Positions 1,768 to 36,651 of a DNA stretch of 64,000 nt are shown piece by piece. Made by a program: the position numbers and the translations under genes. Below the pieces are notes generated by a model, which had not been told where the DNA came from, did not search any database, and worked only from the letters and a program-made list of their open reading frames with translations. How positions within the stretch are numbered: the first letter of the stretch is position 1; each line of letters begins with the position of its first letter. Origin of the DNA: Beggiatoa leptomitoformis (GTDB lineage: Bacteria > Pseudomonadota > Gammaproteobacteria > Beggiatoales > Beggiatoaceae); assembly GCF_001305575.3 (NCBI RefSeq), contig NZ_CP012373.2:558001-622000 (forward strand), read 5' to 3'.

Positions 1768-4700
1768 ATGCCAAATAAAGAATTTCATCACGCCAATTTT
1801 TTTACGACGTGTAAAACCTTGTTATGTGTTATTGGATTTGATGGTGGACTGAGACAGTTCAATCTCGCCTGGGAAACTGAACTGCATTATTCAACCAAAG
1901 AGCTAAGTGAATTTCTTTATCTGGATTTGATTCATCCAGAAGATAAAAGTATTACTAAAAATTATATAGATAAATTAATTACAGGTGCAGAATCTGCCGT
2001 TTTTACTAATCGAATTTTGCAAAAATCAGGTTATTATCGGGCTTATCTTTGGCATATTACCGCCTGTTTAAAAGAGTTTTCTTTTTACGCGGTCGGCATA
2101 GAAACCACAGAAGAAGTTGCCCGCCAAGAAATAGCCCAGCCTATGTCAGCAACAAATACGATAGATAATCAATATGCTTCGTTGTTTGATGTCGCGCCTT
2201 TATTAATTGTGCATAAAGATAAAGAAAATCGGATTATCCGTGCTAATCAGCAAGCCGCCCGTTTTTGGAAAACCACAACAGATAAATTAAGTGGTATATC
2301 AATGGATACGCTTATGCCTGAGGATGTCGACCATCATCATGCAGATGATTTGGATATTGTGGTGTCAGGGCAAGCAAAGCGCGGTATTTTGCAAGAAACA
2401 CTTAATGGAACATTACAGATTGATAAGTTTCCCTATCGCAATGCGAACGGCAATATTGACGGTGTCGTATGGTTTGCTGTTGATATTACGGAACGTTTAA
2501 AAGTCGAGCAAGCCTTGCGAGAAAACCAGTCTTTATTGACCGCTATTTTTGAGGTTGCCGAAATTGGGATTGGTTTAACGGATAAAAATGGACGGTTTGT
2601 TAGAGTCAATCCTGCTTATTGTGAGATGTTTGGCTACCACCCGAATGAGTTATTGGGACAATCTTTATTAGCCGTATTTCCAAACAGCTTGCACAAAGAA
2701 GTACAAAAACTTTATCAAGATGCAGTTAGCGGTAGCCAATTTTTAGCACATGATGAGTGGGAAGGGCGGCACAAAGACGGGCATCATTTTGATATGGAAA
2801 TTACAGTTAGTCGGCTGACACAATACAATAAACCGTTTGTTGTTACCCTTACTTCCGATATCACGCAGCGTAAACAAATGGTGCGGAGTTTACAAAACAG
2901 TGAAGCGCATTTGCGCATGATTGTAGAAAACTTGCCGATTATGGTTGATGCAATGGACGAAAAATATAATTTTGTCCTCTGGAATCGAGAATGTGAGCGG
3001 ATTACAGGCTATACCGCCAACGAAATGCTTCACAACCCGCAAGCATTAGAAAAAATTTACCCCAATGTAGATGACCGACAAAAGCTAGTAGAAGCGTTGA
3101 GTAATGTTTTACACACCAATCCGGGTTATCGTCGCCGTGAATGGCAGATGACTTGTAAAGATGGGACTCAGAAAATCATTGCGTGGTCTATCAACAGTAA
3201 AATTAAAATTCCGGGGTTCGCCGTGTGGGGAATTGGCGAAGACGTGACCGAGCGGGAAAAAGCGTTACAACAATTACAACGCAGCGAAGAATCTTTGCGT
3301 GAAAGCGAAGCACATTTAAAATTTGTTATTGAAAATCTGCCGATTATGGTTAATGCCGTGAATGCGGAAAACCAGTTTGTGTTATGGAATCGAGAATGTG
3401 AACGCATTACAGGTTATTCAGCCGCAGAAATCATTGGCAACCCTGATGCCTTAACATTGCTTTACCCTGATGCGGATTATCGGCAAAAAATGCTTGCGCA
3501 TTTTCAGTTTATTTTAGAACAAAATCCGGGGATACATTACAGTGAATGGACAGTCGTTTGTCATGATGGCATACAAAAAACCATTTCATGGGCAGTCAAT
3601 AGCAAGATTAAAATTCCCGGTTTTGCTGTGTGGAGCATTGGTGAAGATGTTTCAGAGCGAGAAGAAGCACTGCATATTCTTAAAACCAGCGAAGAACGTC
3701 TAAAACAAAGTGAAGTACATTTAAAGTTTGTGATTGAACACCTACCCACAATGGTTGATGCCCTAGACACTAAGGGCAATTTTTTACTCTGGAATCAAGA
3801 ATGCGAACAAGTAACTGGGTATAGTGCTAAGGAAATGATAGGCAACGCGCGCGGCTTAGAAAAACTTTACCCCGACCCCCAATATCGACAAAAAATGCTA
3901 GATGCAGTACAACGAGTTGCAAAAGAAGACCCCGGCTATAGACGGGGTGAATGGGTTGTGCGCTGTAAAGATGGTAGCGATAAAAATATTGTTTGGTCAG
4001 TCAACAGTAAAATTAAAATTCCGGGATTTCCCGTATGGGGAACAGGTGAGGATGTTACTGAACGGCAAAAGATTTTAAAACAACTAGCCGATAATGAAAG
4101 TCGTTTACGCTCATTAGTGGAAAATATCCCCATTATGCTCATGGCATTTGATGAAAAAGGGCAAATTGTCTTGTGGAATCGCCAATGTGAACAAGTAACA
4201 GGATTTCCTGCTGAAGACATTGTCGGCAACCCAAGTGCATTAGCCATGCTCTATCCACAACCCGAATACCGCAGCTACCGCACTAAACCCTTGCAATATA
4301 TCTCGCCTTATTGGCAAAACGATATGACTTGCAAAGACAGCAAACTGAAAACCATTGCATGGAAAGACGTTTCTAATCAGTTTCCTATGTCAGGCTGGGC
4401 AAAATGGATAACGGGCGAAGATGTGACTTTTCGCAAAAAAATTGAACAAAGTATGGGGATTAATGACGGCTTATTAATTGCGGCCCTCAACAGTATTGAT
4501 AGTGCCGTATGCGCGACTAACTCGCTAGAAAAAATCGTTTATGTCAATCAAGGGTTCTGTGACTTATTTGGCTACACAACTGAAGAACTCTTAAAAATGA
4601 GCATTAAACAGATTATGCCTTCTGATAGCCGTGGGAGTTTTGTGGCACGACACTACTTCAGCTTTTACACAGGCGCACATGGCAGTTTTTATGAAGAAAC

Positions 4701-4815
4701 GCACCATGCGTTTCATCATGATGGACACATTTTTAAAGTCAAACTCAACGCCCACCGTGTGAAGCAAGAAAAAGAAGTCCACATTTTATGGATTGTTAAT
4801 TATCTTGATGGTTAG
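1768..4815 (+). CDS. Multi-PAS protein without recognised output domain
   Basis: This 1015-residue protein appears to consist of about eight consecutive PAS domains and nothing else: three at roughly residues 12-375, four closely similar copies from about 380, 515, 650 and 778, and a last one from about 900. The repeats carry the PAS signatures (V)LWN(R/Q)ECE and (I)TGY and end in GEDVTERE-like PAC motifs. The protein stops 15-20 residues after the last PAS/PAC unit. I see no histidine kinase, GGDEF, EAL, methyl-accepting or helix-turn-helix domain, and no membrane segment. PAS domains bind small ligands or haem/flavin or mediate dimerisation; the ligand is unknown. No obvious partner gene is adjacent. 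It may signal by binding one of the kinases elsewhere in the window. Confidence 0.85.
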   Translation: MPNKEFHHANFFTTCKTLLCVIGFDGGLRQFNLAWETELHYSTKELSEFLYLDLIHPEDKSITKNYIDKLITGAESAVFTNRILQKSGYYRAYLWHITACLKEFSFYAVGIETTEEVARQEIAQPMSATNTIDNQYASLFDVAPLLIVHKDKENRIIRANQQAARFWKTTTDKLSGISMDTLMPEDVDHHHADDLDIVVSGQAKRGILQETLNGTLQIDKFPYRNANGNIDGVVWFAVDITERLKVEQALRENQSLLTAIFEVAEIGIGLTDKNGRFVRVNPAYCEMFGYHPNELLGQSLLAVFPNSLHKEVQKLYQDAVSGSQFLAHDEWEGRHKDGHHFDMEITVSRLTQYNKPFVVTLTSDITQRKQMVRSLQNSEAHLRMIVENLPIMVDAMDEKYNFVLWNRECERITGYTANEMLHNPQALEKIYPNVDDRQKLVEALSNVLHTNPGYRRREWQMTCKDGTQKIIAWSINSKIKIPGFAVWGIGEDVTEREKALQQLQRSEESLRESEAHLKFVIENLPIMVNAVNAENQFVLWNRECERITGYSAAEIIGNPDALTLLYPDADYRQKMLAHFQFILEQNPGIHYSEWTVVCHDGIQKTISWAVNSKIKIPGFAVWSIGEDVSEREEALHILKTSEERLKQSEVHLKFVIEHLPTMVDALDTKGNFLLWNQECEQVTGYSAKEMIGNARGLEKLYPDPQYRQKMLDAVQRVAKEDPGYRRGEWVVRCKDGSDKNIVWSVNSKIKIPGFPVWGTGEDVTERQKILKQLADNESRLRSLVENIPIMLMAFDEKGQIVLWNRQCEQVTGFPAEDIVGNPSALAMLYPQPEYRSYRTKPLQYISPYWQNDMTCKDSKLKTIAWKDVSNQFPMSGWAKWITGEDVTFRKKIEQSMGINDGLLIAALNSIDSAVCATNSLEKIVYVNQGFCDLFGYTTEELLKMSIKQIMPSDSRGSFVARHYFSFYTGAHGSFYEETHHAFHHDGHIFKVKLNAHRVKQEKEVHILWIVNYLDG
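2908..4440 (+). repeat. In-frame tandem PAS-coding repeat, period 405 bp
   Basis: The segment encoding NSKIKIPGF begins at 3193, 3598 and 4003, an exact spacing of 405 bp or 135 codons, and the surrounding sequence is similar throughout each unit. A fourth, more diverged unit follows without this peptide. This indicates internal duplication of one PAS module inside the gene. Confidence 0.85.
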
Positions 4816-4870
4816 CACAGCTCTTTTTAAACAGCAGAACTAGGCGATAACACCCGAACAGGAAACAAAT

Positions 4871-5527
4871 ATGAACGCTGAATTTTGGCACAAACGTTGG
4901 GAAAGAAATCAAATTGGTTTTCATCAAACCGAGATTAATACCCATCTACAAACCTACTGGCAAGCCTTAAATCTGCCTAAAGGGGCATCTGTTTTTGTAC
5001 CCTTATGCGGTAAAAGTTTGGATATGCTCTGGTTATTAGAACAAGGTTATCGAGTATTAGGAATAGAATTAAGTAAAGTTGCCGTGCGCGATTTCTTTAC
5101 AGAAAACAATCTCACCCCCACGGTAACAACCTATAAAACCTTTAATCGTTGGGCAATGGATGAAATAGAAATTTTATGTGGTGATTTTTTTCACCTCACC
5201 CCCACAGAACTACAAACATGCACCGCTATTTATGACCGCGCTTCTCTCGTCGCCCTGCCACCAGAAATGCGTAATGACTATGCACAACAACTTGCAACAT
5301 TGTTCCCAACAAACACCCAAATACTTTTAGTCACGTTTGAATATTCCCAAGCAGAAATGCAAGGCCCTCCTTTTGCAGTTCATGCCGATGAAGTCACACA
5401 ACTTTATCAACAACATTTTACCATTGAACAAGTTGCCCACACCGATATCCTCAACGAAAACCCCCGCTTTCAAAAATTGGGTGTGACGCAAATGCAAGAA
5501 AGCGTGTATCTATTGCGTAAAAAATAG
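4871..5527 (+). CDS. tpm: Thiopurine S-methyltransferase
   Basis: The 218-residue product matches bacterial thiopurine methyltransferase over its whole length, which is the usual ~217 residues. The start MNAEFWHKRWERNQIGFHQ, the SAM-binding segment VPLCGKSLDMLWL and the acidic loop VLGIELSKVAV are typical. The family transfers a methyl group from SAM to thiols, and in bacteria also to selenium or tellurium compounds. That activity would fit an organism handling reduced sulfur and metalloid species, but this is inference. An AGGAAA ribosome site lies just before the ATG. The next gene, apaG, is 163 bp downstream. Confidence 0.93.
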   Translation: MNAEFWHKRWERNQIGFHQTEINTHLQTYWQALNLPKGASVFVPLCGKSLDMLWLLEQGYRVLGIELSKVAVRDFFTENNLTPTVTTYKTFNRWAMDEIEILCGDFFHLTPTELQTCTAIYDRASLVALPPEMRNDYAQQLATLFPTNTQILLVTFEYSQAEMQGPPFAVHADEVTQLYQQHFTIEQVAHTDILNENPRFQKLGVTQMQESVYLLRKK

Positions 5528-5690
5528 GCAGTACTCATAAAACAGCAATAAACACAAACCTTGTTTAAACCAAGATTCCTGTTACGACCAAAAACCCAAA
5601 ATAAGCAACATAAATACAATAGTGCTTACATGATAATCGCTTAAATCCCCTGCTATATTATTATCAAACACCATAGGGAGTTACAATATT

Positions 5691-6074
5691 ATGCTTACAT
5701 CGCAATTACATAACATCATAATTGATGTAGAAACACACTATATTGATGAACAATCTGACCCAGAAATTGCCCGTTACGTATTTGCTTACACCGTCACCAT
5801 TCGCAATATGGGCAAAGTTCCTGCCCGTTTAGTAACCCGTCACTGGGTTATTACCGATGCAAACGGTAAAGTGCAAGACGTTCGCGGAGAAGGCGTTGTC
5901 GGCGAACAACCCTATTTACGCCCGGGAGAAGGGTTTCGTTACACCAGTGCTGCGATGATAGAAACCCCTGTTGGTAGTATGGAAGGGAGCTACCAAATGG
6001 TTGCAGATAGTGGCGAACAGTTTGACGCACCCATTAACCCCTTCAGTTTGGCACAACCTCGCACCTTACACTAA
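5691..6074 (+). CDS. apaG: ApaG family protein
   Basis: The 127-residue product has the single immunoglobulin/fibronectin-like beta-sandwich of ApaG. Recognisable blocks are YVFAYTVTIRN, LVTRHWVITDANG, VRGEGVVGEQP and LRPGEGFRYTS. ApaG is widespread; its biochemical role is not settled, although it was named for association with diadenosine tetraphosphate hydrolase. In enterobacteria it sits with ksgA and apaH; here it is followed 11 bp later by a methyltransferase gene that is not KsgA. The start is supported by GGGAG before ATG. Confidence 0.95.
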   Translation: MLTSQLHNIIIDVETHYIDEQSDPEIARYVFAYTVTIRNMGKVPARLVTRHWVITDANGKVQDVRGEGVVGEQPYLRPGEGFRYTSAAMIETPVGSMEGSYQMVADSGEQFDAPINPFSLAQPRTLH

Positions 6075-6085
6075 GCCTTATACCC

Positions 6086-6718
6086 ATGAGTCACACGCTA
6101 AAATACAGCTACACTTTACTTGCACCGATTTACGATGCAATTGTGGACTCTCCAACGCGGGCGACACGTCATCAAAGCCTAACGCAATTGAATGACGTAA
6201 CCGCCCAAACAATTTTATTATGTGGTGTGGGCAGTGGCTTAGATTTTCCTCATTTACCCCTTGGCGCAAATTATGTTGGTATCGATTTAACCCCTGCCAT
6301 GTTAAAACGCGCTCACCAACGTCTAACACCTCGCCTTTCTACGAAATTACATCAAGGCGATGTTATGCAACTGCCCTATCCAAACGCCTGTTATGACCAA
6401 ATTATCATGCACCTTATTCTGTCCGTTGTACCTGAACCACAACGCGCTTTAAACGAAGCAATGCGTGTCGTCAAAGCAGGGGGCAAAATAATCATCCTTG
6501 ATAAATTTTTACGCGCAGGACAACACGCCCCCATTCGCCGTCTTATCAATCCCCTCATCAGCAAAATAGCAACCCGTACCGATGTTGTTTTCGAATCCTT
6601 ACAACGTCCCGTAGAAGTAACATTACTTAGCGACAAACCCGCCCTATTAAATGGATGGTTTCGCTATATAGTCCTAGAAAAAACAGTTGTTCATAACGAT
6701 ATTTCAACCAACGAATAA
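6086..6718 (+). CDS. Class I SAM-dependent methyltransferase
   Basis: The 210-residue protein has the Rossmann-like methyltransferase fold. Motif I is ILLCGVGSGLDFPHLP, motif II is YVGIDLTPAML and a later segment reads HQGDVMQLPYPNACYDQIIMHLILSVVPEP. The beginning (YTLLAPIYDAIVDSPTRATR) resembles phosphatidylethanolamine N-methyltransferase or ubiquinone-type methyltransferases, but the substrate cannot be read from the sequence. It lies 11 bp after apaG and is probably cotranscribed with it. No good Shine-Dalgarno precedes the ATG. The gene ends six bases before the convergent sulfide dehydrogenase gene. Confidence 0.85.
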   Translation: MSHTLKYSYTLLAPIYDAIVDSPTRATRHQSLTQLNDVTAQTILLCGVGSGLDFPHLPLGANYVGIDLTPAMLKRAHQRLTPRLSTKLHQGDVMQLPYPNACYDQIIMHLILSVVPEPQRALNEAMRVVKAGGKIIILDKFLRAGQHAPIRRLINPLISKIATRTDVVFESLQRPVEVTLLSDKPALLNGWFRYIVLEKTVVHNDISTNE

Positions 6719-22952: not shown

Positions 22953-23888
22953 TTACGCACCTAATAAGTCTTTTCTGGGGTCAAAAGGAAACGTTTCTGC
23001 CATTTTTTGATAAAACTGGCGTGCTTGCTCCGTTTCTGCGCGTGGTGTAACAATTTGTAATACAACATATTGGTCACCTGCTGGTTTACCTGCTAACCCT
23101 CTCCCACGCAAGCGCAATTTTTGCCCTGATTGAGAATCCATCGGGATTTTTAGATCAACATTCCCCCCCAATGTAGGCACGGCAACCGTTGCCCCTAAAG
23201 CCGCTTCCCATGGTGTGATGGGTAACGTAAGATAAATATCATGTCCTTCAACTCGATAAATAGCATGGGGTTGTAAATTGATTTCTAAATACAAATCGCC
23301 ATTTGTTCCACCACCCATGCCCGCAGAACCTTGTCCTGCTAAACGAATTTTTTGCCCCGAACTTATGCCTACAGGCACTTTAACGTTTAAAGTGCGTGTT
23401 TTATTTTGTGTATGTCCTTGTGCATCCATTTCAGGTATTTGAATTTGCACAGAACGTGTCGTTCCCTGATAAGCTTCTTCTAGGGTGATAGACAATTGCG
23501 CGTGCTGGTCTTCCCCCTGCATACGAAAATGACTTTGTGTACGGCCGCGTTTCGCATTGCGGGTATTAAAAATATTTTCAAAAAAATCACCAAAATCAAC
23601 AGTACTACTATTTCCCCCAAACCCACCTGTAAAATTCCAATCAGGTGGTGGATTAAATTCTTGCCCTGCTTTCCATTGCGCACCTAACTGGTCATAGGCA
23701 GCTCGTTTGTCAGCATCTTGCAATACTTCATGTGCTTCATTAATTTCCTTAATTTTTTGTTCAGCATCTTTTTCTTTACTAACATCAGGGTGATATTTAC
23801 GTACCAAACGACGATAAGCCTTTTTAATATCTTCTGCACTGGCAGTACGCGATACCCCTAATGTTTGATAATAATCTTTATATTCCAT
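22953..23888 (-). CDS. cbpA: DnaJ-class co-chaperone CbpA
   Basis: The 311-residue protein has an N-terminal J-domain with the HPD motif (KYHPDVSKE) and a Gly/Phe-containing linker (GGFGGNSSTVDFGDFFENIF). Two C-terminal substrate-binding beta domains follow, and no zinc-finger cysteines are present. This is the CbpA (type II Hsp40) architecture of normal length. It stimulates DnaK ATPase and delivers unfolded proteins in the cytoplasm. It lies directly downstream of hsp20 on the same strand, but a hairpin at 23925-23962 separates them. AGAGGTG precedes the start. Confidence 0.95.
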   Translation of the reverse strand: MEYKDYYQTLGVSRTASAEDIKKAYRRLVRKYHPDVSKEKDAEQKIKEINEAHEVLQDADKRAAYDQLGAQWKAGQEFNPPPDWNFTGGFGGNSSTVDFGDFFENIFNTRNAKRGRTQSHFRMQGEDQHAQLSITLEEAYQGTTRSVQIQIPEMDAQGHTQNKTRTLNVKVPVGISSGQKIRLAGQGSAGMGGGTNGDLYLEINLQPHAIYRVEGHDIYLTLPITPWEAALGATVAVPTLGGNVDLKIPMDSQSGQKLRLRGRGLAGKPAGDQYVVLQIVTPRAETEQARQFYQKMAETFPFDPRKDLLGA

Positions 23889-30824: not shown

Positions 30825-31199
30825 CTAGGGCGCAACTTTCAATGTTTGACCAATCTTAATTGTGTACGGAGATTTAATACCGTTCCAACGCGCTACTTCA
30901 GTGACTGTACGACCATAACGTTTAGCAATGCTATAAACGGTATCACCTTTAACAACTGTGTGTGTTTCAGACACAGTTTCAACAGGTGCAGGCTCTTCAA
31001 CAACAGGTGGCATACTGGGTTGTTCAACAACGGGTGCAGGTGTTTCAGCAACGGGCGCAGGAATTTCGGTTTTGGCAGGTGCTGGAGGAACATCAGCTTC
31101 CTTAGTTGAAGAACAACCGCCTAAAAACGCTAATGAAAGTCCACAAACAACAGCAAGACTTTTCAAGTGATTTTCTAATAACATAGTGAGTTTTCCCAT
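30825..31199 (-). CDS. LysM-domain lipoprotein
   Basis: The 124-residue precursor has a lipoprotein signal ending in the lipobox LGGC. A Pro/Ala/Glu/Val-rich spacer of about 50 residues follows, then one LysM domain (HTVVKGDTVYSIAKRYG to IKIGQTLKVAP). LysM binds peptidoglycan, so the protein likely links the outer membrane to the wall. No peptidase domain follows, unlike NlpD. Two ATG starts are possible: 31199, with no ribosome site, or 31184, which is preceded by GGGA and gives a better signal peptide. Confidence 0.9.
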   Translation of the reverse strand: MGKLTMLLENHLKSLAVVCGLSLAFLGGCSSTKEADVPPAPAKTEIPAPVAETPAPVVEQPSMPPVVEEPAPVETVSETHTVVKGDTVYSIAKRYGRTVTEVARWNGIKSPYTIKIGQTLKVAP

Positions 31200-31496: not shown

Positions 31497-31859
31497 ATGG
31501 ATTTAAAAACAATCAGTGACGCTTTGGAAAACTTAGTAACGTTAAAAATTCGCACCGTTGTTGGCACTTATACAGAAGTTGATGGACGGATTCATGCAGA
31601 AGAGAACGCCCGTTCCATCGTGTCACAAATCGATTTATTAGGAGGTGATATTACAACCATCATGCACGATGATTTTTTAATCGCACCCTTAAACGAAGTA
31701 ATGCAGTTTCACTGCGAACGGGAATTAAAAGGACAGGATATTATTCAGGGCAATATTCGCGCACTAAAAGAGTTAGTTGGATTAATCGCAACCCTTGCTC
31801 GTCAACAAGATGAAACACCCGCACTGCACGCTGACAATAAAGAAAGTGCAGTAGGCTAA
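31497..31859 (+). CDS. Unknown small cytoplasmic protein, first gene of a four-gene cluster
   Basis: No family is recognised for this 120-residue protein. It is predicted helical and acidic with no signal or membrane segment. Its start, LKTISDALENLVTLKIRTVV, resembles the start of the next protein (FKTLAQNVLTLEINTIV), suggesting a shared N-terminal motif. TTAGGAG precedes the ATG. The next gene begins 24 bp later on the same strand. Conserved context rather than sequence will be needed to place it. Confidence 0.75.
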   Translation: MDLKTISDALENLVTLKIRTVVGTYTEVDGRIHAEENARSIVSQIDLLGGDITTIMHDDFLIAPLNEVMQFHCERELKGQDIIQGNIRALKELVGLIATLARQQDETPALHADNKESAVG

Positions 31860-31883
31860 TCTGCCAGCAGGAGAGGCATTGTA

Positions 31884-32666
31884 ATGGCAGAAAAATTTTC
31901 GTTTAAAACCCTAGCACAAAACGTTTTAACATTAGAAATTAATACTATCGTTAAAACCAACATGTTAGGGTGTAAGTTGCCTAATTCTCGCCGCGAGGCC
32001 TTATGGGAAATTGCGTATGATTACAATAGTACAATGCGCGATTTTGGCTATTCTCCCGTTCCTGAACTGAGCGAGTGGAGTTGCGCAGGCATTATGGCAT
32101 TTTTAGAATTGCGCGAGCGAGCAAAACGGGCGGGACAACTGGTTGAGTTAGAATTAGAGCGACTTAAAAACCAGCCTGTTGAACAAATACAACCCTTAAA
32201 AGAGAATTTAACCATTCTCAACCGAATTAAAATCCAATCAGAACAGTTAGTGTCCATGTTTATTAGTCTCGCGCATAAAGCAGAGGAAAACATTGATTTA
32301 GATAAAATTAAAGAAATGGCACGGACAGACTCCGATTTTCGTGAAAAAACCAATATTTGGAATAATGATATTGAACGTCAGCGGATGCAGGATGACACAT
32401 TGGCAGATTTAGATTTATCACCTTCACAAATTAGTTTTATTCGTAAAATCTGGGAAATTGGTACAGAGCGAATTGTTTTACAAACAGTTATTCAGGTTGA
32501 AGGGGATATAACAACACGTATTTCTGAATATCTGATTCAACATCCCAATCCAACGATTTTGAAATTACATAACGAGTCAATTTTGACCTCCGTTCAATTT
32601 TGGTCAAATCTCGTAAAAACGGTTGGGGAATTTGCGGGCGGTTTGGTTAGTAAAATACTCAAATGA
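31884..32666 (+). CDS. Unknown helical protein, second gene of the cluster
   Basis: The 260-residue protein is not recognised. It is largely alpha-helical, with a probable coiled-coil region (LELRERAKRAGQLVELELER and onward) and no signal peptide. Its first 17 residues share a pattern with the start of the upstream 120-residue protein. Near the N-terminus it contains CKLPNSRREALWEIAYDYN. The C-terminus, VGEFAGGLVSKILK, is amphipathic and could touch the membrane. Its stop overlaps the start of the next gene by 4 bp (ATGA), so the products are probably made in fixed proportion. Confidence 0.75.
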   Translation: MAEKFSFKTLAQNVLTLEINTIVKTNMLGCKLPNSRREALWEIAYDYNSTMRDFGYSPVPELSEWSCAGIMAFLELRERAKRAGQLVELELERLKNQPVEQIQPLKENLTILNRIKIQSEQLVSMFISLAHKAEENIDLDKIKEMARTDSDFREKTNIWNNDIERQRMQDDTLADLDLSPSQISFIRKIWEIGTERIVLQTVIQVEGDITTRISEYLIQHPNPTILKLHNESILTSVQFWSNLVKTVGEFAGGLVSKILK

Positions 32667-33214
32667 AAAATCAGTTGCTGGATACACTGCGCGGGTTTAT
32701 AAAAGAAAGTGTGGTTGTGGTAGAAACCCCTTTTATATCAAAAGGAATACAGGGGCAAAACTACTCAGGGTCTTTTCGGACAATCATTCATCTTGATGGT
32801 GATGTACTGTGTATTGTTCCATCCCCCGAAGCTTATCCGCAAAATCCTGAATGGATAGCCTTATTAGATAATTATGCAGAACGCCATACGCAATCAGTGG
32901 CTGCATTTTTACAGCAGCTAAATATTTATCAAACGACTAGCAAGCGGTTACTGGTCATTTTGGGAAATTTATTAGGTGGTGTAACATGGCTAGCTGTTTT
33001 TACGACACATTATCATGATTTGCTCGTCTGGCTTTTACTGTACAACAAACACGTCAGCCATCCTTTTTGGGTTGGTTTTAATCTCGGCATCGCTTCTGTT
33101 TCATTCATTGCAAGTATTGTGTTTATGTTATGGTTGGGTGAAATGACCGTTCGCTATATACGTATCTTTTTGATTAAAATGATTTCCCGTAAACTTAGGA
33201 CGTTGATTGATTAA
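32663..33214 (+). CDS. Unknown membrane protein, third gene of the cluster
   Basis: The 183-residue protein has a soluble N-terminal part of about 95 residues and two membrane helices (LLVILGNLLGGVTWLAVFTT and GFNLGIASVSFIASIVFMLWL). A short basic tail (KMISRKLRTL) probably faces the cytoplasm. No known family is apparent. The 4-bp ATGA overlap with the previous gene indicates translational coupling, and the fourth gene follows 18 bp later. The first two proteins may dock on it at the membrane; this is inference. Confidence 0.75.
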   Translation: MKNQLLDTLRGFIKESVVVVETPFISKGIQGQNYSGSFRTIIHLDGDVLCIVPSPEAYPQNPEWIALLDNYAERHTQSVAAFLQQLNIYQTTSKRLLVILGNLLGGVTWLAVFTTHYHDLLVWLLLYNKHVSHPFWVGFNLGIASVSFIASIVFMLWLGEMTVRYIRIFLIKMISRKLRTLID

Positions 33215-33232
33215 TAAATCCCCCCTCACATA

Positions 33233-33682
33233 ATGATAAAAAACTACTATCAAATACTCGGTGTGCCGCGTGATGCGAGTCCCGACCAAATTAAACGCGC
33301 CGCGCAAGCAAAAGCGGCAGAAATCACGCAAGCCTATGCTATTTTAAAAGAGCCTAAACAGCGAGATATGCACGATGCAGAACTGAATACGTTTGACCGA
33401 CGTATTCGCTTGATTAAACAGCGTAATCATCTGCTGTACGCGCTTCTTCCACTCATTGGTTATCTTTTAATGGCAGGGTTTATCTATTATGTCCCTTTAC
33501 AAGTTCTCCATCATATTGCCGATACGAGTGCGCAAGCGGGGGCAGCTATTAACCTAACGCAAAAAATGGCTGATATTTTAGAAAACTATATTCCCTTTAT
33601 CGCAGTATTATTGGTTTGTATTGGTGGACTGGTTGCAATTGGACGATTTGTCTGGATTCGCGGGGATGGGTATGACAAATAA
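33233..33682 (+). CDS. Membrane protein with truncated J-domain lacking the HPD motif
   Basis: The 149-residue protein begins like a DnaJ domain (NYYQILGVPRDASPDQIKRA). It then jumps to the end of helix III (EITQAYAILKEPKQRD), so that about 25 residues, including helix II and the HPD loop needed to activate DnaK, are missing. Two membrane helices follow (YALLPLIGYLLMAGFIYYVP and FIAVLLVCIGGLVAIGRFVW). It cannot act as a normal Hsp70 co-chaperone; it may bind a partner through the remaining helices. It is the last gene of the four-gene unit and converges with mtaD. Confidence 0.8.
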   Translation: MIKNYYQILGVPRDASPDQIKRAAQAKAAEITQAYAILKEPKQRDMHDAELNTFDRRIRLIKQRNHLLYALLPLIGYLLMAGFIYYVPLQVLHHIADTSAQAGAAINLTQKMADILENYIPFIAVLLVCIGGLVAIGRFVWIRGDGYDK

Positions 33683-35830: not shown

Positions 35831-36163
35831 TCAAGCTAAAAGAATCAAGGTAGAAGCCAAATAAACCCCACTTAAGAAATTCCTAGCGCGTTTATCATAT
35901 CGTGTAGCTATAGCGCGGTATTGCTTTAATTTACCAAAGAAATGCTCGATTAAATAACGTGCCTTATAAAGGACTTTATCATAATAAGGTGGATTTAAAC
36001 GATTTTTCCTGAACGGAATCACAGGTTCTATGCCTTGCTGTTTTAAAACATCTCTAACCCGTTCATCTGCATCATAAGCCTTATCAGCCAATAAAGCGTT
36101 TGCCTTTATCTGAGGAATAAGAGCATCAGCCCCCTCAAGGTCGCTTGCCTGTCCCGCAGTCAA
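35831..36163 (-). CDS. IS5-family transposase, C-terminal frame (orfB)
   Basis: The 110-residue frame begins with [17 protein letters not shown] and carries the second and third parts of the DDE site: [14 protein letters not shown] with an aspartate and [26 protein letters not shown] with the glutamate. It has no ATG of its own and is most likely made only as a -1 frameshift fusion with the N-terminal frame. Confidence 0.88.
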
Positions 36164-36579
36164 AAAAAAAGGGTCGGATTGCCCAGTGCGTCAACAACGG
36201 AGTTAATCTTGGTACTTAAACCCCCTGCGCTACGTCCAATGGCTTCATCTGCGCCACCACCACTACTATGTTGATGCGCTCTAACTATTGTGCTGTCTAT
36301 CATGGCATATTCATTATCGGCATCGGCACTTAGTATCTTGAAAACACGTTCCCAGACACCTTTCTTAGACCAACGACTGAAGCGGGTATGGACGACACGG
36401 AAATCACCAAAGCGTTCGGGGAGGTCGCGCCAAGGAATGCCACTGCGATAACGGAATAGAACAGCATCAATAAACAAGCGGTTATCTTTAGCCGTCATCC
36501 CGACATGTCCTTTACGCCCAGGGAGTAGCGGTTCTAGTTTTGACCATTGTTCATCGGTTAAGGCATAGCGACGACTCAT
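36160..36579 (-). CDS. IS5-family transposase, N-terminal frame (orfA)
   Basis: The 139-residue product starts [20 protein letters not shown] and contains the DUF4096-type helix-turn-helix region. [21 protein letters not shown] and the first catalytic aspartate, in [13 protein letters not shown], follow. AAGGA precedes the ATG at 36579. The frame closes with TGA immediately after a T9 run (A9 at 36162-36170). A -1 slip on this run continues the protein into the second frame as LTAGQ, as in other members of this group. Confidence 0.88.
36162..36170 (-). other. Slippery T9 frameshift site in the transposase
   Basis: Nine A on the plus strand give TTTTTTTTT on the coding strand just before the TGA of the first frame. 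Re-reading one base (-1) joins the two transposase frames into the complete DDE enzyme. A sequencing error cannot be excluded, but the position matches programmed frameshifting known for IS427-type elements. Confidence 0.7.
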
Positions 36580-36651
36580 TGTTTTATCCTTGGCGATATC
36601 TGGGTATATGATTATAATATAACATTTTTTACTATTTGATGACACGCCCTA

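Follow-up and report, generated by a model that had tools for sequence, protein, structure and literature searches.

Four closely packed genes, here called A, B, C and D, lie on the plus strand between positions 31,497 and 33,682 of the window, the whole 64,000-nucleotide stretch of Beggiatoa leptomitoformis DNA that was analyzed. Their layout raises the question of what their products build together, which of the four belong to it, and what a J-protein that has lost its HPD motif contributes.

Gene layout and conservation within the genus

The preliminary description of this locus listed four open reading frames of 120, 260, 183 and 149 residues, separated by 24 bp (A-B), -4 bp (B-C) and 18 bp (C-D), and all of this was confirmed. 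Gene A (31497..31859, plus strand, as for all features of the operon below) and gene B (31884..32666) are open reading frames kept among relatives; they encode proteins of 120 and 260 amino acids, which hydropathy analysis indicated to be soluble, with zero hydrophobic helices in either. Gene C (32663..33214), whose first 4 bp are also the last of B, encodes 183 residues with a soluble part followed by a pair of predicted membrane helices at residues 96-114 (32948..33004) and 141-159 (33083..33139). Gene D (33233..33682) encodes 149 residues, with an HPD-less mini-J domain followed by two membrane helices (residues 67-85 and 122-140). The hydropathy of A, B, C and D is thus as first described.

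All four genes were found in identical order in a congeneric genome (G001), with protein identities of 85% for A, 80% for B, 54% for C and 76% for D. Values of dN/dS were 0.036 for A, 0.061 for B and 0.093 for D; for C, synonymous sites were saturated. A, B, C and D are real genes, and A, B and C were shown to be under purifying selection. A divergent LysM lipoprotein gene upstream of the operon (30825-31199) is common to the two species, and the downstream flanks are unlike. Promoter and terminator scans gave signals at or below chance. Further downstream in the window (35831-36645), an IS-type transposase extends over two open reading frames in overlapping frames (161 and 110 residues), representing either a frameshifted element or a programmed frameshift.

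Relatedness of A, B and C

A and B had been noted to share an N-terminal pattern. In a decoy-controlled profile test (4,703 sequences; about 4,500 shuffled decoys), the A profile ranked the B family above all shuffled decoys, with a best E value of 3.5e-6 compared to 0.087 for the best decoy, and the pattern is therefore beyond chance. The match consisted of two collinear pieces, residues 6-26 of A with the N-terminus of B and residues 45-97 of A with its C-terminus, which in B are kept apart by a helical middle section about 170 residues long. B thus looks like A with this helical middle inserted. The C profile matched the same segment of B as A did, from E 5e-4 (best shuffle 0.07). The segment common to C and B reads [T]x[IV]xxDGD[IV] and is located at residues 199-208 of B (LQTVIQVEGD, 32478..32507) and at residues 38-48 of C (FRTIIHLDGDV, 32774..32806). 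Direct comparison of the family alignments with hhalign gave E 4e-6 for A and B and E 5e-5 for B and C. A and C had no significant direct match, their similarity being visible only via B. Profile comparison thus showed that A, B and C are paralogues derived from one ancestral module. The earlier observation of a common module stands, but its limitation to A and B does not, as C carries the module as well. By the same comparison, C appears to have its central segment in common with A and B and to end in membrane helices.

Each of 16 A proteins and each of 16 B proteins has the G-D pair and a His downstream of it, as do 12-13 of 13 C proteins. Invariant residues of A are G50-D51, H72 and N86; those of B are Q200, G207-D208, R212, H229 and W240. 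In C the DGD segment is followed by His75, both within the soluble part. This near-complete conservation in all three families and across phyla would fit an enzyme with active sites at the subunit interfaces, to which each subunit contributes its invariant Asp (of DGD) and His. We regard such an activity as unlikely, since some C proteins carry DGS, DSD or DGN in place of DGD, no enzyme fold was matched and a GD turn motif can be structural.

An AlphaFold2 model of A, built from a three-sequence alignment, was of fair quality (mean pLDDT 80.6) and consists of a short helix, a five-stranded sheet and a long C-terminal helix. The model of B was poor (pLDDT 43.8). From its sequence, B is predicted to combine an A-like N-terminal strand with a C-terminal DGD/His segment around the long helical middle. 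Among relatives of C, a simple hydropathy test found two clear membrane helices in several proteins and one in others. The C-terminal tail of C is positively charged.

Searched with the single sequences, Pfam, NCBIfam, PADLOC and PHROGs returned nothing for A and B, and for C only a sub-cut-off match of the membrane part to formate channels. Relatives of A, B and C scanned individually gave isolated single-member matches only, and PADLOC 2.0.0 produced zero matches for the three proteins. Against PDB sequences, B matched influenza HA2 (E 0.003) via its helical middle, which we take as a coiled-coil artefact, and C matched the transglutaminase-like protein 3isr (E 0.001) via a short DLDGD stretch, a relationship that was not supported. 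With Foldseek, the best match of the A model in the PDB had a non-significant E value of 0.23. The many Foldseek matches of A to the DnaK substrate domain (TM-score <=0.30, E >0.4) were set aside. A viral structure library yielded nothing convincing.

Two known groups resemble individual members of the trio. Like the A model, YbaB/EbfC proteins, whose fold is alpha-beta-beta-beta-alpha, have a sheet followed by a long helix, and YbaB entries were the three best and the fifth-best VIA-align matches of the A model, with Z scores of 5.5, 5.1, 5.0 and 4.7; note that Z scores below 8 may reflect a common arrangement only, not real kinship. YbaB is widely distributed, whereas A is not, and A is found together with B and C. 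None of 11 A proteins matched YbaB in Pfam, and the PDB sequence search gave no YbaB match either. C resembles the SLATT-type effectors with two membrane helices from conflict systems (PMC7159879) in being a small protein with a membrane-helix pair, but differs in that its soluble module is A/B-like. No SLATT profile in Pfam matched the window's C or any of 8 C proteins. We found no description of the A-B-C trio in the literature. Profile searches, and for A also fold searches, matched no known family or system, and A, B and C thus appear to be new, although very remote kinship is possible.

Distribution and neighbourhoods of A-B-C

B was detected in 10 of 57 related genomes, and A and C were each present in the identical 10. 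Seven of these carriers have the uninterrupted order A-B-C. In the other three (G005, G010 and G016) C is separated from the A-B pair and lies on a different contig, and linkage alone therefore cannot explain the joint presence of the three genes. The displaced C of G016 (L091, reverse complement, 3802-6022) follows a SecB-like protein and a GpsA-like gene, both named from reading the sequence. We inspected 18 loci, of which 10 were from Beggiatoaceae, 5 from Brocadiae, 1 from a distant gammaproteobacterium (G1146) and 2 from Azospirillum chromids. A adjoins B in 18 of 18, with C directly following in 15. Within the window's family, 10 of 36 genomes carry A-B-C. With the order unchanged, the trio recurs in the class Brocadiae (5 of 75 genomes), in the remote G1146 and on the Azospirillum chromids, there directly after parA-parB. 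Its hosts include giant sulfur bacteria and anammox-type bacteria as well as Azospirillum. In broader sets, B was restricted to the window's own genome among 398 Pseudomonadota genomes, to 2 of 369 Gammaproteobacteria genomes and to 3 of 392 Planctomycetota genomes, all three Brocadiae. Among viral contigs and in phage records, zero relatives of B were found.

Co-occurrence, gene order and the DGD/His module present in all three unite A, B and C. Of these, conserved co-occurrence was the check that the preliminary description had named. Its treatment of all four genes as one conserved unit was not supported, as D adjoins A-B-C in the window's genus only. The genes flanking A-B-C are unrelated at nearly every site. 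A small three-gene cassette moving as a unit fits these observations best, and spread by horizontal transfer is most likely; we infer transfer from the distribution because support in the A and B trees is too low for proof. A selfish or neutral operon whose three genes stay together by drift alone, with a convergent common motif, would accommodate the non-significant direct match between A and C. Such an explanation is very improbable in view of the decoy-controlled A-B and B-C matches, the strong purifying selection and the fact that three genomes have kept C at a locus of its own.

Peptidase genes were found near the trio, on the same strand, in 4 of 5 Brocadiae loci: a papain gene (L015:5572-7551), M36 and papain genes (L040:9407-12082), a caspase gene with a hydrolase-like domain (L039) and a Nal1-type trypsin gene (L042:5369-6538). 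One papain gene is common to two of these four loci. The neighbourhoods in Beggiatoaceae, Azospirillum and G1146 consist of ordinary or housekeeping genes. A protein of ~180 residues that had no Pfam match is encoded directly upstream of A in two Beggiatoaceae (L020:7654-8202; L023, reverse complement, 6119-6673). An association with mechanosensitive channels (L018, L022) was dropped, since it involved two loci only and the proteins were unlike. In Azospirillum (AMK58_RS24010-24020 in Azospirillum brasilense Sp7) the genes immediately preceding the trio are annotated as encoding a ParA-type AAA ATPase and ParB (L027:5424-9474; L028:3408-7474), and co-selection with chromid partitioning is possible; a gene annotated as beta-ketoacyl-ACP reductase follows the trio.

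These surroundings bear on what the putative complex may do. Multicellular or aggregating bacteria have been described as carriers of conflict systems, including groups that overlap with the hosts of the trio (PMC7159879). Together with the patchy distribution across phyla and the same-strand peptidase genes of the Brocadiae, this makes it conceivable, though doubtful, that A-B-C serves multicellular or aggregating hosts as a conflict system, directed against phages or at self/non-self recognition, with A and B as sensing or restraining parts and the membrane hairpin of C as the one that kills or permeabilises. The lack of PADLOC matches and the ordinary neighbourhoods in Beggiatoaceae count against a defence role, as do the housekeeping neighbourhoods in Azospirillum and G1146; there is no NTPase or nuclease partner, and the papain gene common to two loci reduces the weight of the peptidase genes. 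Alternatively, A-B-C could organise a membrane or internal compartment (storage inclusions, vacuole or anammoxosome) with no immune role. Some hosts of the trio are known to have internal compartments or granules, and both the combination of a membrane anchor with soluble paralogues and the annotated beta-ketoacyl-ACP reductase gene in Azospirillum would suit such a function. However, carriers make up only a minority of the window's family and of the Brocadiae at the frequencies given above, indicating that A-B-C is not needed for those compartments, and we consider this function rather improbable. A conflict or stress role is our weak favourite, for which the peptidase genes and the overlap in hosts are a lead and not evidence.

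The mini-J domain of D and a model of the proposed complex

The preliminary description had found no known family for any of the four products. This holds for A, B and C but not for D, which matches Pfam DnaJ (PF00226) in two pieces with 33.5 bits (cut-off 27.8; E 4.6e-8). The matching segments are YYxILGV and IKxA at the N-terminal side and AYxxLxxPxxR at the C-terminal side. Compared to a canonical, HPD-containing J-protein encoded in the same window (22953-23888), D has one contiguous 17-residue gap, with YRRLVRKYHPDVSKEKD missing. The absent block runs from the middle of helix II through the HPD loop into the beginning of helix III. D had been described as a J-domain without helix II and HPD; HPD is indeed gone, but only the second half of helix II is lost. 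The resulting mini-J domain occupies residues 1-51 (33233..33385), and as a consequence of the excision its outer two helices probably continue as one. Unlike DnaJ/Hsp40, D has no HPD motif between helices II and III, and thus no HPD that would stimulate DnaK. Given the loss of HPD, the earlier suggestion that D may bind without activating DnaK is a reasonable one. In PADLOC 2.0.0, D gave only a chance-level match to Cas4 (E 0.043).

The DnaJ profile matched 14 of 14 mini-J domains, and a mini-J profile gave only two-piece matches to DnaJ structures. Among the matches listed for the 398 genomes of the phylum, the mini-J profile overwhelmingly produced split matches to normal J-proteins, with near-full matches only in the window's genome and in G042, the latter with a short insertion. 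Ungapped mini-J domains were present in 13 of 25 Beggiatoaceae genomes searched (L045-L055, L058-L069). They are found at the N-termini of unrelated membrane proteins, often as tandem pairs, and their partners, named from reading the sequences, are RDD-like, WD40, TM2 plus pilin-like, or a single membrane helix. A second clear mini-J domain in the window's genome (G000:C1:2529199-2529426) has its helix part duplicated. A literature search found no description of HPD-less mini-J arrays. On these alignments, the mini-J domain appears as a newly recognised, altered form of the known J-domain, and D as a mini-J and membrane-hairpin protein recruited into the A-B-C operon in this genus only. Most likely, D acts as an adaptor independent of Hsp70.

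We propose that A, B and C are probably subunits of a membrane-anchored complex, and that D, added to their operon in this genus, probably serves as a docking adaptor. The membrane-anchored complex with two related soluble parts envisaged previously is supported, except that the related parts are three, one of them being the anchor itself. The common module would consist of a sheet carrying the T-x-I/V-x-x-DGD-I/V segment and, after it, a long helix that bears the conserved His, and its homology suggests that it provides the surface for assembly of A and B on C. C may hold the assembly at the cytoplasmic face of the inner membrane, a placement based on hydropathy and the charge of its C-terminal tail. 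The collapsed J-domain of D would be unable to present HPD to DnaK. D may instead dock another factor, or tie the complex to other mini-J membrane proteins, in a manner independent of DnaK, and docking also seems to be the role of mini-J domains at the N-terminus of many other Beggiatoaceae membrane proteins. Rather than in housekeeping, the complex could have an accessory role in stress or conflict responses, as weakly suggested by the patchy cross-phylum distribution and the peptidase genes beside the Brocadiae copies.

More speculatively, and as a tentative proposal only, A-B-C may define a novel type of complex that is mobile, anchored in the membrane and built from three paralogues, probably an accessory device for conflict or stress responses in multicellular and aggregating bacteria. 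In one lineage it would have been coupled to a new kind of Hsp70-independent docking domain, which arose when one excision collapsed a J-domain and then multiplied across membrane proteins. If true, this adds a so far uncharacterised system of three subunits that has a well-defined anatomy, spreads horizontally and can be studied in a host amenable to genetics, Azospirillum brasilense. The mini-J domains open a direct question as to the binding partners of the remaining J-domain, and indicate that a J-domain can shed exactly its Hsp70-activating half yet still multiply.
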